Origin: Sandaracinus amylolyticus
GTDB taxonomy: Bacteria; Myxococcota_A; Polyangia; Polyangiales; Sandaracinaceae
NCBI RefSeq assembly: GCF_021631985.1
Contig: NZ_CP070225.1
Location: 5,084,001 to 5,148,000 of the forward strand
Length of the DNA: 64,000 nt
Direction of reading: 5' to 3'
Part shown: one piece after another, positions 48,390 through 53,741 of the stretch
Position numbering within the stretch: position 1 is the stretch's first letter
Layout of the letters: every line of letters begins with the position of its first letter
Notes under the pieces: model-generated
The model's input: the letters and a program-made list of their open reading frames with translations, nothing else
Database searches by the model: none
What the model was told of the DNA's origin: nothing
Made by a program: the position numbers and the translations under genes

Positions 48390-49253
48390 TCAGCCGTCGA
48401 GACGGCCGATGCGCTCGAGGTACGCGCGAGCCAGCGCGTAGTCGTCCTTCTGATCCGGATGGAAGTCGCGGCGCAGGTAGTCGGCGATCGCCCCGCGGAA
48501 CATGACGGTGCGGTGCTTGCGCTCGCGCTCGAGCACCGGGTCCGCCTCCGCGGCGCGACGATGGGCCGCGAGGTCGGTGCCCATCGCGGCCTCCTGGCGG
48601 AGCAGCTCGCGCGCGCCGAGGATCCAGAACGCGACGATGCTCGCGCTCGCGAGCGCGATCCCCGCGGCGCGCACGCCCCAGCGCGGGTCGACCTTCTGCA
48701 GCACGTCGTACGCGACCGACTTGTGCTCGATCTCCTCGGCGGCATGCCAGCGCAGCAGGTCGCGCATCAGCGGGTGCGCGTGATCGAGCATGTCGCTCTT
48801 CAGCGCGTTCTCCGCCATCGTCGCGGTGTAGTGCTCGAGCGCGGCGGTCGCCGAGAGGCGCAGCACGGGCGGCGTGTTCTTCTCGAGCACCTCGAACGCC
48901 CAGTGCCGGTAGAACGCGAGGAAGGGCTCGAGGTCGTAGCCCTGCTCCTGCAGCAGCTTGTTATACCGCTCGTGCTCGTGGCCGTGACGACCCTCCTGGC
49001 CGAAGAAGCCGCGCACCCGCGCGAGCAGCTCGGGGTCGTTCTCGACGACGTGCATGTAGTGCTTCACCGAGCGGATGAAGAAGCGCTCGCCGTCGGGGAA
49101 GAGCAGGTTCAGCGCGTTCGAGATGTGGGTCGGGATCGGGTTCTCGAAGAACCACCAGCGCGGGACCGCGGCCTCGCGGAACGCGAAGCCCATCGCGCGC
49201 ACCGGGATCGACCGCTTGCTCTTGGTGCTCTCCGCGCTCGCCGTCGCGCTCAT
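48390..49253 (-). CDS. PF10118-type predicted metal-dependent hydrolase
   Basis: 287 aa. The predominantly helical sequence carries His/Glu sets typical of the COG3687/PF10118 group: HGHEHERY near 92-99, HWAFEVLE, ALEHYTATM and WHAAEEIEHKSVAYDV near 160-175, giving a ferritin-like four-helix pattern that could hold a di-metal centre. A hydrophobic stretch near 197-211 may be a buried helix. The reaction is unproven for the family. The divergent TetR gene starts 90 bp away across a near-palindromic site at 49289-49303. Confidence 0.74.
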   Translation of the reverse strand: MSATASAESTKSKRSIPVRAMGFAFREAAVPRWWFFENPIPTHISNALNLLFPDGERFFIRSVKHYMHVVENDPELLARVRGFFGQEGRHGHEHERYNKLLQEQGYDLEPFLAFYRHWAFEVLEKNTPPVLRLSATAALEHYTATMAENALKSDMLDHAHPLMRDLLRWHAAEEIEHKSVAYDVLQKVDPRWGVRAAGIALASASIVAFWILGARELLRQEAAMGTDLAAHRRAAEADPVLERERKHRTVMFRGAIADYLRRDFHPDQKDDYALARAYLERIGRLDG

Positions 49254-49288
49254 GAATTCCTCCCTGTTCTGCGAGCATCTAGCATCTG

Positions 49289-49303
49289 TTGAACTTCGGT
49301 CAA
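49289..49303. promoter_or_regulatory. Candidate TetR operator
   Basis: TTGAAC TTC GGTCAA is an inverted repeat with half-sites TTGAAC and TTGACC (one mismatch) in the 90-bp gap between the divergent TetR and PF10118 genes. The location fits repression of both. Confidence 0.45.
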
Positions 49304-49343
49304 TAGCGCTGGACGCGGGTCCGGGTCATGCTCGGCGATCCCT

Positions 49344-50042
49344 ATGAGCGCTCCGATCGCCCGCCATCGTCTCGCGCTCGACGAGCGACGTGCACAGCTC
49401 CTCGAGCTCGGCGCGCGCCTCTTCGCCGAGCGCTCGTACGACGACGTGTCCATCGACGACATCGCGGAGGCGGCGGGGATCTCGAAGGGGCTGCTCTATC
49501 ACTACTTCGGCAGCAAGCGTGCGTTCTACGTCGCGACGGTGAGGCAGGCCGCGGAGCAGCTGCAGCTGCGGACCGAGCCCGACAGCTCGCTGCCGCAGCC
49601 GGCGCGCGCCCGCGCCGGGCTCGACGCGTACCTGAGCTTCGTCGAGGAGCACGCCGCGCCCTACGCGTCGCTGATGCGCAGCGGCATCGGCAACGATCCC
49701 GAGGTCGCCGCGATCGTCGACGAGACGCGCGACGCGATCGTGCGGCGCATGATGGGCGAGCTCGGGCTCACCGAGCCTCGTCCCGTCGTGCGCTTCGCGC
49801 TGCGCAGCTGGATCGGCCTGGTCGAGGCCGCGAGCCTCGACTGGCTCGATCGTCGCGAGGTCGCGCGCGAGACGGTGCTGCAGATGCTGCTGGAGTCGCT
49901 CTACGCGACGCTGGTGCTCGCGTCGCGCCTCGATCCCGAGGCTGGCGTCACGGTGTCCGCGTCGCCGCCGACGATGGGCGACTCGAGCGCGGTGATCGAC
50001 ACCAGCGAGGCCGAGCGCAGCGCTCGCCCGCGGCGTCGCTGA
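49344..50042 (+). CDS. TetR-family transcriptional regulator
   Basis: 232 aa. The N-terminal HTH is canonical (LFAERSYDDVSIDDIAEAAG and SKGLLYHYFGSKRAFY, ~27-62). The C-terminal part is helical (LDAYLSFVEEHAAPYASLMR...), the ligand-binding and dimer domain. It probably represses the divergent PF10118 gene and itself. The stop abuts the stop of the opposing gene in the palindrome TGATCA (50040-50045). Ligand unknown. Confidence 0.88.
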   Translation: MSAPIARHRLALDERRAQLLELGARLFAERSYDDVSIDDIAEAAGISKGLLYHYFGSKRAFYVATVRQAAEQLQLRTEPDSSLPQPARARAGLDAYLSFVEEHAAPYASLMRSGIGNDPEVAAIVDETRDAIVRRMMGELGLTEPRPVVRFALRSWIGLVEAASLDWLDRREVARETVLQMLLESLYATLVLASRLDPEAGVTVSASPPTMGDSSAVIDTSEAERSARPRRR

Positions 50043-51047
50043 TCACAGCACTGCGACGCCGCGCGGAGCGGGATCGTCGCCGAGCATCTCGAACGCAGCG
50101 CGGTGCGTGGTGCGCAGGGTGAGCGGGGCGCGCCCATCGCGCTCGAGCACGATCTCGCAGCGCGCGAGCTTCGAGTTGAGGCAGGTCTTGGTGCCCCCCG
50201 GCGGGTTGCCGTAGGGCAGCGCGACGAACGTCGACGACGGCGCGTCCATCCGTCCGTGCAGGCGCGCGCCCTTCGCGCGCACGTCGAAGCGCCACTCGAA
50301 CGGGCGGAACGACGCGCGGGCCGCGAAGCCGCGCGGGACCGAGTCGAAGCGCAGCTCCTCGTCGCCGAGGCGGAGCACCGCGACGGTCAGCGGCGGCGCG
50401 AGCACCGGGCCCACGGCGACGCGCGCGGTCGCGAGCTCGAGGAAGGCCTCGGGCGCGTCGTCGAAGCCCGCGACCTGGCCCCACGCATAGCGGTCGGTGT
50501 GTCGGCTGCCCCAGTTGTGGTTGTGGCTGCCGATCCATCCGTCGATCGCGAGCGGCTCGCCGTCGACCTCGATCGTGCCGTCGAAGCGCGCGAACGGCGC
50601 GCTCGTGAGCACCTTCGCGCGCGGCAGCGGCGCGTCGTAGAGCGCGCGCGGGAAGAGCAGGAGCGGCGAGGCCGCGCTCGTGTACCGCAGCGACCATCGC
50701 AGCGAGTGCGACGCGCTCTTCGCGCCACCCTCGAGCGAGCGCGCGTCGAGGCGCGATCCCGCGACCTCCACGTCGAGCCCGCGCGCGCCGAAGCGGCACG
50801 ACGCGATCGGGAATTCCTCGCGCACCGCGACCACGCGCTCGCGCTCGCCGTCGAACACGATCGCCCACACCTCGCCGAGCGCTTCGTCGGGCGCGGCACC
50901 GCGACGCGCGAGGATCGTCGAGCGGATCCAGAACGCGAGCGGGCGCGTGGGATGGTTCGCGCGCTGGAACCAGCTCTCGTAGTGCCCGCCGCGATCCGAG
51001 GCGACGAAGCGAGGGGTGTCGAGGGCGTCGCGATCGAGCTCGATCAT
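50043..51047 (-). CDS. Unassigned enzyme-like protein with HNHNWG motif
   Basis: 334 aa without a signal peptide. Mostly beta strands with a distinctive central block SHNHNWGSRHTDRYAWGQV near residue 172, rich in His, Trp and Asn that could form an active or binding site. The overall look, an N-terminal half and a C-terminal half of similar size, recalls lipocalin-like two-domain proteins such as CrtC or AttH, but this is not certain. It ends exactly against the TetR gene and lies upstream of a dispersed repeat copy on its own 5' side. Confidence 0.55.
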   Translation of the reverse strand: MIELDRDALDTPRFVASDRGGHYESWFQRANHPTRPLAFWIRSTILARRGAAPDEALGEVWAIVFDGERERVVAVREEFPIASCRFGARGLDVEVAGSRLDARSLEGGAKSASHSLRWSLRYTSAASPLLLFPRALYDAPLPRAKVLTSAPFARFDGTIEVDGEPLAIDGWIGSHNHNWGSRHTDRYAWGQVAGFDDAPEAFLELATARVAVGPVLAPPLTVAVLRLGDEELRFDSVPRGFAARASFRPFEWRFDVRAKGARLHGRMDAPSSTFVALPYGNPPGGTKTCLNSKLARCEIVLERDGRAPLTLRTTHRAAFEMLGDDPAPRGVAVL

Positions 51048-51098: not shown

Positions 51099-51142
51099 AG
51101 TGCTCGCTGGCGGAGGGGCGAGCCGATCTCGGACACGCTCTC
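51099..51142 (+). repeat. Dispersed repeat element, copy 1
   Basis: Starts AGTGCTCGCTGGCGGAGG and ends near CGGACACGCTCTC. The same left 18 bp and a closely similar right end occur at 55507-55577 on the other strand, where they flank an extra hairpin. This copy sits in the 93-bp gap and ends on the MarR stop codon. Confidence 0.6.
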
Positions 51143-51614
51143 AGTCCTCTTCGCCGGCCTCGCGCGCGAGCTCGTCGATCACCGCGCGCAGCACGCGGCG
51201 GGCGCCCTCGATGTCGCGCGCATCGACCTGACGCAACGCGCGCTGCACCGCGGCCTCGACCGTGCCGCCGCGCTCGCGATCGAGATCCTTGCCCGCGCTC
51301 GCGAGATAGAGGTGCATGCGGCGCGCGTCCTCGGGATCCGGCTCGCGACGCACCGCGCGGCGCTCCTCGAGCCTGCGCAGGATGCCGGTCAGCGTGCTCG
51401 GGTGGATGCGCATCGCGCTCGAGAGCTCGCCCGCCGCGATGCCCGGCCGGCGCCCGATGATGCGCAGCGCGAGGCGCTGCGGACCGGTGATGCCGATCGC
51501 GCCCTCCATGCGCTTGCTGAGCGACTGGAGCGCGTGCGTGAGCTCCCACAGGAGCTGCATGAACTGGAGCGTCTTGCCGAGCTTCGGCTCGAGCGGCGCG
51601 TCGGACGTCGACAT
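51141..51614 (-). CDS. MarR-family transcriptional regulator
   Basis: 157 aa. A winged-helix core: GPQRLALRIIGRRPGIAAGELSSAM and HPSTLTGILRRLEERRAVRREPDPEDARR (~43-97), with the wing and DxRR-like motif of MarR proteins. It is the downstream gene of the KamA-family gene (82 bp gap). The 24-bp palindrome upstream of kamA is a strong candidate for its operator, giving an autoregulated operon. Ligand unknown. Confidence 0.87.
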   Translation of the reverse strand: MSTSDAPLEPKLGKTLQFMQLLWELTHALQSLSKRMEGAIGITGPQRLALRIIGRRPGIAAGELSSAMRIHPSTLTGILRRLEERRAVRREPDPEDARRMHLYLASAGKDLDRERGGTVEAAVQRALRQVDARDIEGARRVLRAVIDELAREAGEED

Positions 51615-51696
51615 CTCGGGGGCCAGGTCTGGCAGCGGCCGCGCGCACGCGCCAGTCGTCTCCGGAGGTCGGAAGAGAGGCGAAGCGAAGGAACGA

Positions 51697-53112
51697 TCAC
51701 CACCGCTCGCCGGCGAGGACCGGCAAGCGACGGCGGCGCAGCGTGCGGAATTCGGTCCGCGTCGCGTCGGGGTCCTCGCGGACGCGACGCATCTCGGGCT
51801 CGAAGAAGAACTCCGGCTCGTCGAACGCGGGCTCGAGCTGATCGAGCCAGGTCGCGCGTTCGTCGTACTTCGCGAAGAACGGGCGCCCCACCCAGTCCGG
51901 CTCGCGCGCTTGCAGGAAGCGGAGCGCCAGCACGCGCTCGCCGCGGATGTGCGCGGGGCCGTCGACCGTGACCTTCCCCGGCGTCGCGCTCATCGAAGGA
52001 CCGCGCGCGGTGCGCGCGAGACCGGACACGCGCGCGAGCGCGTCCCGCACGATCCGCCACGCCTCGACCAGGGGCACCTCGAACCAGTGGCTCGCGCCGG
52101 TGTCGCGCTCGACGAACGCGTAGTACGGCACGGCGCCGAGCTGGGCCTGCAGCCGCCACATCTCCGCCCACGCGAGCGCGGCGTCGTTCACGTGGCGCAG
52201 GATCGGCGCCTGACACCGCACCACCGCGCCGGTGCTCCGGACGCGCTGCACCGCGCGCTGCGCGATCGCGCTCTCGAGCTCGCGCGGGTGCGAGTAGTGC
52301 GCCATCAGCGCGAGCGTGCGGCCCGAGCGCGTCACCTGCTCGAAGAGGCGCAGCAGGTCGTCGGCGTCGGCGTCGGTGACGAAGCGGTACGGCCAGTAGG
52401 CCGGCGCCTTGGTGCCGATCCGGATCGACGCGAGGTGCGGCAGGTCGGCCTCGAGGAGCGGCTCGACGTAGCGGCGCAGCACCGACGTCTTCATCAGCAG
52501 CGGATCGCCGCCCGTGATCAGGACGTCGGTCACCTCCTCGTGCTCGGCGAGGTAGCGCACCAGCTCGTCGGCCTCGCGCGTCGCGAACTTCATGTCGTCG
52601 AGCCCGACGAATTGCGGCCAGCGGAAGCAGTAGGTGCAGTACGCGTGACAGGTCTGGCCCTGCGCGGGGAAGAAGAGGACCGTCTCGCGATACTTGTGCT
52701 GGAGGCCGCGGGTGCGGCGATCGTCGAGCAGCGGGGTGTTGAGCTCCATCTGCCCGGCGGGATGCGGGTTGAGCCGGTGCTGGATCTCGCGCGCCGCGTC
52801 GCGGATCACGTCGCTGCCCGCGCCGCTCGCGAAGAGCCGCTCCATCTGCGCGAAGTCGTCGTCGCGCAGCATGCCGCGCTGCGGGAACGTGAGCTGGAAG
52901 ATCGGGTCGTCGGGCACACGCGCCCAGTCGATCAGCTCGCTCGTCACGTACTCGTTCACGCGGAACGGGAGCACGGACGCCACGATCTCCATCGCGCGGA
53001 TCTCGCCCTCGCCGAGGCGTGCGAGCTGCGGAATCGAGGAGAGATCCTTGCGCTCGAGGGCCTTGAACCGGCGGGGAACGAGGGTTCGACTGGCGAACAC
53101 CACATCGTTCAC
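51697..53112 (-). CDS. KamA-family radical SAM aminomutase-like protein
   Basis: 471 aa from GTG at 53112, the only in-frame start, since TGA lies upstream within the palindrome. The radical SAM cluster CHAYCTYCF gives Cys155, Cys159 and Cys162; LITGGDPLLM is the SAM-binding segment. The family moves amino groups of lysine or related substrates using PLP. Here the usual GGGGK around the PLP Lys reads SATPGKV near 378, an unusual form. No AblB acetyltransferase or EpmA is adjacent. The lack of a ribosome site and the 8 bp between palindrome and GTG suggest a leaderless mRNA. Confidence 0.82.
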   Translation of the reverse strand: MNDVVFASRTLVPRRFKALERKDLSSIPQLARLGEGEIRAMEIVASVLPFRVNEYVTSELIDWARVPDDPIFQLTFPQRGMLRDDDFAQMERLFASGAGSDVIRDAAREIQHRLNPHPAGQMELNTPLLDDRRTRGLQHKYRETVLFFPAQGQTCHAYCTYCFRWPQFVGLDDMKFATREADELVRYLAEHEEVTDVLITGGDPLLMKTSVLRRYVEPLLEADLPHLASIRIGTKAPAYWPYRFVTDADADDLLRLFEQVTRSGRTLALMAHYSHPRELESAIAQRAVQRVRSTGAVVRCQAPILRHVNDAALAWAEMWRLQAQLGAVPYYAFVERDTGASHWFEVPLVEAWRIVRDALARVSGLARTARGPSMSATPGKVTVDGPAHIRGERVLALRFLQAREPDWVGRPFFAKYDERATWLDQLEPAFDEPEFFFEPEMRRVREDPDATRTEFRTLRRRRLPVLAGERW

Positions 53113-53120
53113 GCGAACGG

Positions 53121-53144
53121 AATTAGTTTGAGCTCAAACTAATT
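53121..53144. promoter_or_regulatory. Perfect 24-bp palindrome, probable MarR operator
   Basis: Half-site AATTAGTTTGAG is followed by its exact reverse complement. It covers a promoter-like pair on the minus strand: TTGCAA (53148-53143), 17 nt, TAATTC (53125-53120), directly upstream of the kamA-like GTG. AT-rich symmetry of this length is unusual in this GC-rich window. The core TTTGAGCTCAAA resembles MarR/OhrR-type operators. Confidence 0.8.
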
Positions 53145-53219
53145 GCAAGAACTACCCGCGCGAGCTCTCACGAATTCGCGATTCGACGCTGGCGCGCCCC
53201 GCGAGCAGAATCCGCGGCC

Positions 53220-53741
53220 ATGCGCGCCCGGAGCCTCGTCGCCTTCGTCCTGCTGGTCTCGCTCGCCGCGTGCGGCGAGGATCGTCCTGCGTCGAGCCCG
53301 GGGACGCAGGGCGGCGCGAGCGCGACGAAGAGCGAGCCGGCGCGGGTGCCCCGTCGCGAGCAGGAAGAAGGACTCGCGCGCTGCGGCGAGGTCCTGGCGC
53401 GCATCGAGGGGCCCGAGACCGCGCCGACCTTCGCGCGCCTGATGCGCGAGTGCGGCGGGATGTTCGCGCGGCGCCGGTGTCGCGACGCGCTCGCGGCGGA
53501 GCCCTTCTCGCGCGAGGGCGTCGCCGAGGCATGCCGCGCCGACTACTGCGACGAGCTCCGCCCCGCGCCGTCGTTCTGCACCACCGACATGCCGACCGAC
53601 GCCGAGTTCCTCGAGCAGTTCGCGCGGTTCTCGCGCGCCGCGCTGCGCCGCGATCTGCGCCGGCTGATGGATCGCGAGGGCGCCGACGAGATCGCCGATC
53701 TCTTCGCCGATCTGATCGAGACCCAGGCCGCGCTGCAGTGA
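53220..53741 (+). CDS. Small helical lipoprotein
   Basis: 173 aa, lipobox SLAAC (Cys18). A Ser/Pro/Arg tether (~20-50) precedes helical segments with Cys (GLARCGEVLARI, MRECGGMFARRRC, EACRADYCDEL, SFCTTDMP). Six or more Cys in a helix-rich frame suggest disulfides outside the cytoplasm. It diverges from the KamA/MarR operon across a 107-bp gap that holds the palindrome, so it might also be under MarR control. A GC-rich hairpin (53784-53812) lies between it and the next gene. No family recognised. Confidence 0.55.
   Translation: MRARSLVAFVLLVSLAACGEDRPASSPGTQGGASATKSEPARVPRREQEEGLARCGEVLARIEGPETAPTFARLMRECGGMFARRRCRDALAAEPFSREGVAEACRADYCDELRPAPSFCTTDMPTDAEFLEQFARFSRAALRRDLRRLMDREGADEIADLFADLIETQAALQ

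Follow-up and report, generated by a model that had tools for sequence, protein, structure and literature searches.

A 24-bp perfect palindrome, AATTAGTTTGAGCTCAAACTAATT, found at positions 53121-53144 of the 64,000-nucleotide stretch of Sandaracinus amylolyticus DNA analyzed here (the window), is quite likely the operator through which a MarR-type regulator, encoded downstream in the same operon, represses kamA and marR and, probably, at least two genes for fused trehalose-phosphate synthase/phosphatase (OtsBA) enzymes, with the KamA-like enzyme itself most likely acting in compatible-solute or osmotic-stress metabolism. The palindrome, which is strand-neutral, is regarded as a putative MarR operator on the basis of its sequence, its conservation, and the co-occurrence of site and MarR gene.

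The palindrome and the candidate kamA promoter

An earlier note on this DNA had reported a 24-bp perfect palindrome in AT-rich sequence, overlapping TTGCAA-N17-TAATTC and ending 8 bp before a GTG without a ribosome-binding site. The sequence is as described there, and the interval originally named (53112-53148) consists of the perfect dyad together with the GTG and the -35 box. The core of the palindrome, TAGTTTGA-GC-TCAAACTA, occupies 53124-53141. Read along the minus strand, a candidate -35 box (TTGCAA, 53148-53143) is followed by a 17-bp spacer, filled by the palindrome, by a candidate -10 box (TAATTC, 53125-53120), by 7 nt, and by the GTG start of kamA (53112-53110); 8 bases (53113-53120) separate the palindrome from this codon, and inspection of the sequence ahead of it found no Shine-Dalgarno. 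Both hexamers are weak matches, and the candidate promoter was not called by a strict sigma-70 scan; we propose it on the basis of its conservation. The kamA-like radical SAM gene (51697-53112, minus strand, 471 aa) belongs to a distinct KamA clade, and marR (51141-51614, minus strand), encoding a winged-helix regulator of 157 aa, follows 82 bp after it in the same operon. On the other side, a divergent lipoprotein gene (53220-53741, plus strand, 173 aa) starts 75 bp from the palindrome, and is a possible but unsupported second target. Adjoining marR, the window also encodes an Rv3169-like protein, a TetR regulator with weak FasR similarity, and a Metal_hydrol protein (48390-51047), which possibly form a lipid-related cluster.

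The length of the palindrome, taken alone, is weak evidence because shuffles of the GC-rich window match it (among 100 dinucleotide shuffles, 18 contained one of 24 or 26 bp) and a 26-bp palindrome is present in a coding region; given that shuffles equal 24 bp, length was dropped as evidence. The longer palindrome, CGCTACCTCGACCGGTCGAGGTAGCG, lies within a reading frame at 499-524 and is probably a product of chance in coding DNA. The A/T-rich sequence of the operator candidate itself (75% A+T, vs. a G+C content of 72% for the window) is not due to chance. No shuffle of the window contained AATTAGTTTGAGCTCAAACTAATT at 3 or fewer mismatches, and the core GTTTGANNTCAAAC occurs in 5 copies in the 10.96-Mb genome vs. 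approximately 0.03 expected from composition, with 0 copies for the reversed control of the core pattern. There are 22 further single-mismatch core sites in the genome, mostly GTTGGAGCTCAAAC, and these look like chance matches in coding sequence.

Conservation of the site and its association with MarR genes

In a second genome of the same genus (G001), where KamA is 92% and MarR 96% identical to the proteins of the window, ATAGTTTGAGCTCAAACTAT is intact and the DNA from the lipoprotein gene to the site has diverged. The site again sits in a 17-bp spacer (between TTGACG and TATTTC) and again 7 bases before a GTG, and the lipoprotein gene adjoins it in this genome as well. The leaderless kamA mRNA predicted by the earlier note remains plausible, and is compatible with the comparison because the distance from the -10 box to the GTG is the same 7 nt in G001. 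An aminotransferase gene stands between kamA and marR in G001 (L057, 7077-8588) and is absent from the corresponding 51615-51696 of the window; because kamA-aminotransferase pairs recur in other phyla, the gene was probably lost from the window genome. In Polyangium fumosum, one of the two sites found upstream of kamA also fills a 17-bp spacer (TTGCAT, TATATC; boxes read by eye).

When the best match to the site was sought upstream of kamA in about 88 orthologues, these fell into two groups, one with 0-2 mismatches (4 loci), and the rest with at least 5. A site with at most 4 mismatches lies ahead of the kamA-marR or marR-kamA operon for 7 of the 8 MarR-linked kamA genes, a count that takes in operons with marR first, degenerate sites, and one divergent KamA (L110, L197, L198). 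Among the roughly 80 orthologues not linked to a MarR gene, only P. fumosum has the site, in two copies, and this organism encodes a strong MarR homologue that is unlinked to kamA. The association between site and MarR linkage among kamA orthologues is significant by Fisher test (9e-9). Nonetheless, one MarR-linked kamA pair (L117) has only a degenerate site, a clear site is missing near several MarR homologues, and the majority of kamA orthologues have no MarR neighbor. The placement of the site, its conservation, and the enrichment described here and below are all read directly from the sequences, and the idea, already advanced in the earlier note, that the palindrome is a MarR operator with autoregulation finds strong support, at the level of sequence comparison, in this conservation and in the way the site and a MarR gene occur together across phyla.

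From these data we infer binding by MarR, repression, and a releasing signal as follows. With a MarR dimer on the palindrome, the DNA separating the -35 and -10 boxes would be covered and RNA polymerase blocked; kamA and marR would then be repressed, the latter by its own product, until release by a signal that is most likely tied to osmotic or desiccation stress. The same MarR probably represses at least two fused OtsBA genes of the genome.

MarR relatives, trehalose genes and competing explanations

The window MarR carries a MarR winged-helix domain (PF01047, 51.5 bits vs. a cut-off of 24.6), and no other close member of its clade turned up in the window genome. Searches of three phyla gave close homologues (E up to 1e-15) in the window's own (27 of 377 genomes), in that of the Planctomycetota record L126 (6 of 392 genomes), and in that of the Acidobacteria record L071 (21 of 396 genomes). 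We compared 56 MarR loci (393 kb) with 75 background loci (832 kb, more A/T-rich). Trehalose-type genes, meaning OtsA/OtsB, GH15 trehalase-like, TreS and TreZ, were present in 19 of the MarR loci vs. none of the background loci (Fisher 1e-8), and ClC channels in 16 vs. 2 (Fisher 4e-5), numbers that are to be read as indicative, given that the MarR loci are phylogenetically non-independent and many span just 3.4 kb. Pfam and NCBIfam models confirmed Voltage_CLC, Glyco_hydro_15 with TREH_N, Trehalose_PPase, Glyco_transf_20, TreS and TreZ, the last two with matches above the curated cut-offs. With up to 3 mismatches allowed, the MarR loci contain 16 sites and the background 0. At up to 4 mismatches, all 24 sites are intergenic, most of them no more than about 150 bp from a start codon, and the genes concerned include otsB-marR (L271), otsA-otsB-marR (L297, L303), OtsBA (L310), treS (L195) and a ClC gene (L297). 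In a MarR tree (a single FastTree run on a short alignment), the kamA-linked and trehalose-linked regulators interleave in one clade, and ectoine-linked MarRs fall outside it, as does a smaller and more distant group of homologues (L272, L273, L289-L295) that touches trehalose and ClC genes. Two small proteins, each encoded after the putative operator near marR in a different genome (L194, 3771-4172, 133 aa; L236, 2054-2416, 120 aa), share an LDTFEKLE motif, and a Pfam search of one of them returned no match. In the open-access literature, we found no description of a comparable MarR protein acting on trehalose, ClC or kamA genes. These MarR-site pairs at trehalose and ClC genes in several phyla suggest, as far as sequence can tell, control of protection against water stress.

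Within the window genome, two of the four other exact core sites are found upstream of fused OtsBA genes, at distances of 74 and about 145 bp; the product of one of these genes scores above the NCBIfam cut-off for the bifunctional enzyme. A third (L008) precedes a gene for a lipoprotein with thrombospondin-type repeats, and the fourth lies where a permease-like gene ends, 50 bp ahead of the gene that follows. G001 retains both the first OtsBA site and the one at the L008 lipoprotein gene. It could be argued that the palindrome is a local autoregulatory operator of kamA-marR only, and that the trehalose-gene sites serve a different regulator with a similar half-site. The half-sites of MarR proteins are in fact often alike, and the TCG-flanked sites of the window genome (L008, L009, L065) are similar to a repeat-like element seen in a different family of the same order. 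In one genome of that family (G391; L217-L230), GTTTGANNTCAAAC is present in 15 copies, mostly flanked by TCG/CGA and intergenic, often just past stop codons or between converging genes, and looks like an interspersed repeat-like palindromic element. Because the TCG-flanked versions of the core form such an element in G391, three of the five core sites in the window genome, including the second OtsBA site, may be something other than an operator. We nevertheless hold a separate regulator to be unlikely, as the first OtsBA gene has a TAG-type half-site in the window genome and a full TAG/CTA palindrome in G001, clade MarRs are physically linked to trehalose genes with sites upstream in many genomes, and a single close clade member was found in the window genome.

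It is also very unlikely that MarR works as an activator from this site, or that the site chiefly controls the divergent lipoprotein gene. Some MarR proteins are activators, and the lipoprotein gene is conserved beside the site in G001; the site, however, overlaps the kamA promoter elements, a classical place for repression, and the gene on its other side differs elsewhere (a ClC gene in L077, unrelated genes in L126 and L067). Least credible of all is a repeat or transcription terminator, a reading that draws on the 15 occurrences of GTTTGAGCTCAAAC in G391 and that we rejected for the window palindrome, which stands between diverging genes, lacks a GC-rich stem with its own T run, falls exactly in the promoter spacer, and shows conservation together with promoter and MarR presence, even though the caveat stays in place for the TCG-flanked sites.

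The KamA-like enzyme and its probable place in compatible-solute metabolism

The protein encoded by kamA conserves the CxxxCxxC motif (CHAYCTYC) and the PLP lysine (SMSATPGK), and its best solved structural match is 2a5h (E 3e-17), which identifies it, by sequence and by structural match, as a KamA-fold radical SAM protein and as a KamA-type aminomutase in the wide sense. It resembles lysine 2,3-aminomutase in fold, in these two motifs, and in an Arg after the cluster motif, but differs in its longer N-terminal region, in Arg and Ser in place of two Asp, and in its scores, which lie under every KamA-family cut-off (TIGR03820 of NCBIfam, 106 bits vs. 525). The two replaced residues are the lysine-binding aspartates, which we take to be Asp293 and Asp330 in the numbering of the Clostridium enzyme, and Arg and Ser take their place in the 16 clade members compared (by-eye reading against the own-genome paralogue L261). 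On cut-offs and pocket residues we rejected an identity as lysine 2,3-aminomutase and, because the cut-offs failed and the Asp positions hold Arg and Ser, we consider lysine an unlikely substrate. A pocket with Arg and Ser would be well matched to an acidic side chain. Our literature search found no assigned substrate for the KamA clade, which is present in many phyla.

The kamA orthologues are followed by an aminotransferase gene in 12 loci, including that of G001. In Polyangium and Nannocystis, the next gene encodes an asparagine-synthase-type amidotransferase, and in P. fumosum the kamA-amidotransferase pair (L067, 7453-9219) sits behind two putative operators. Because trehalose genes, ClC channels and kamA are the recurrent partners of its MarR clade in several phyla, the enzyme most likely belongs to compatible-solute or osmotic-stress metabolism. 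Beta-amino acids are known compatible solutes in methanogens, where beta-lysine produced by lysine 2,3-aminomutase (KamA/AblA) feeds the osmolyte N-epsilon-acetyl-beta-lysine (PMC1224877). As for the product of the enzyme, a bolder reading, less likely than not, is that a previously undescribed, multi-phylum MarR clade regulates compatible solutes and that, in addition to trehalose, a beta-amino-acid osmolyte which is new or unassigned, possibly beta-glutamate or one of its derivatives, would be made by the KamA-like enzyme; the pocket would fit an acidic side chain, and an aminotransferase or asparagine-synthase-like gene comes after kamA elsewhere.

MarR proteins such as OhrR, HosA, HcaR and SlyA are dimeric, have a winged helix, and recognize a palindromic operator; their similarity to the window MarR amounts to roughly 23-38 bits, and their targets are other ones. 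A closer parallel is EctR, which controls its own gene in one host and whose A/T-rich operator, a pseudo-palindrome, consists of two half-sites of 8 bp each, set 2 bp apart, and overlaps a -10 box (PMC5924519). The same 8-2-8 geometry is seen in the candidate promoter spacer of the window, and MarR-type repressors of the EctR/CosR kind act on genes for ectoine and other compatible solutes, a class of genes which the window clade neighbors too. Unlike EctR/CosR, however, the window clade is linked to trehalose, ClC and kamA genes, not to ectABC, and is seen in Myxococcota, Planctomycetota and Acidobacteriota; neither the operon of the window marR nor the neighbors of this gene included ect genes. 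The ectC-linked MarRs of Planctomycetota form a clade of their own (0.99), apart from that of the window, in the same single run and short alignment, which included no characterized EctR sequence, and this tree placed the window MarR outside an EctR subgroup. A related half-site, ATTGAGTACAAAGTATT, is found downstream of the MarR genes in Planctomycetota ectoine loci (L325, near 2325; L326, near 2552), and is perhaps an EctR operator there. The best reading of these comparisons is that of an EctR/CosR-like yet separate MarR clade, which would repress compatible-solute genes and into whose control an orphan KamA would have been drawn for osmoadaptation.

Beyond what the earlier note contained, the site recurs upstream of trehalose genes, loci with trehalose, ClC or kamA genes contain relatives of the window MarR, and the lysine-binding residues of lysine 2,3-aminomutase are absent from the enzyme. 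The main addition to the operator reading is a proposed osmolyte regulon, and this wider picture is new. To our knowledge, the switching of trehalose and related protectants in myxobacteria and other soil bacteria is poorly known. A common operator would tie the trehalose genes and the KamA clade to one regulator and one stress, and reading them as a regulon gives an uncharacterized aminomutase-like enzyme a testable role.
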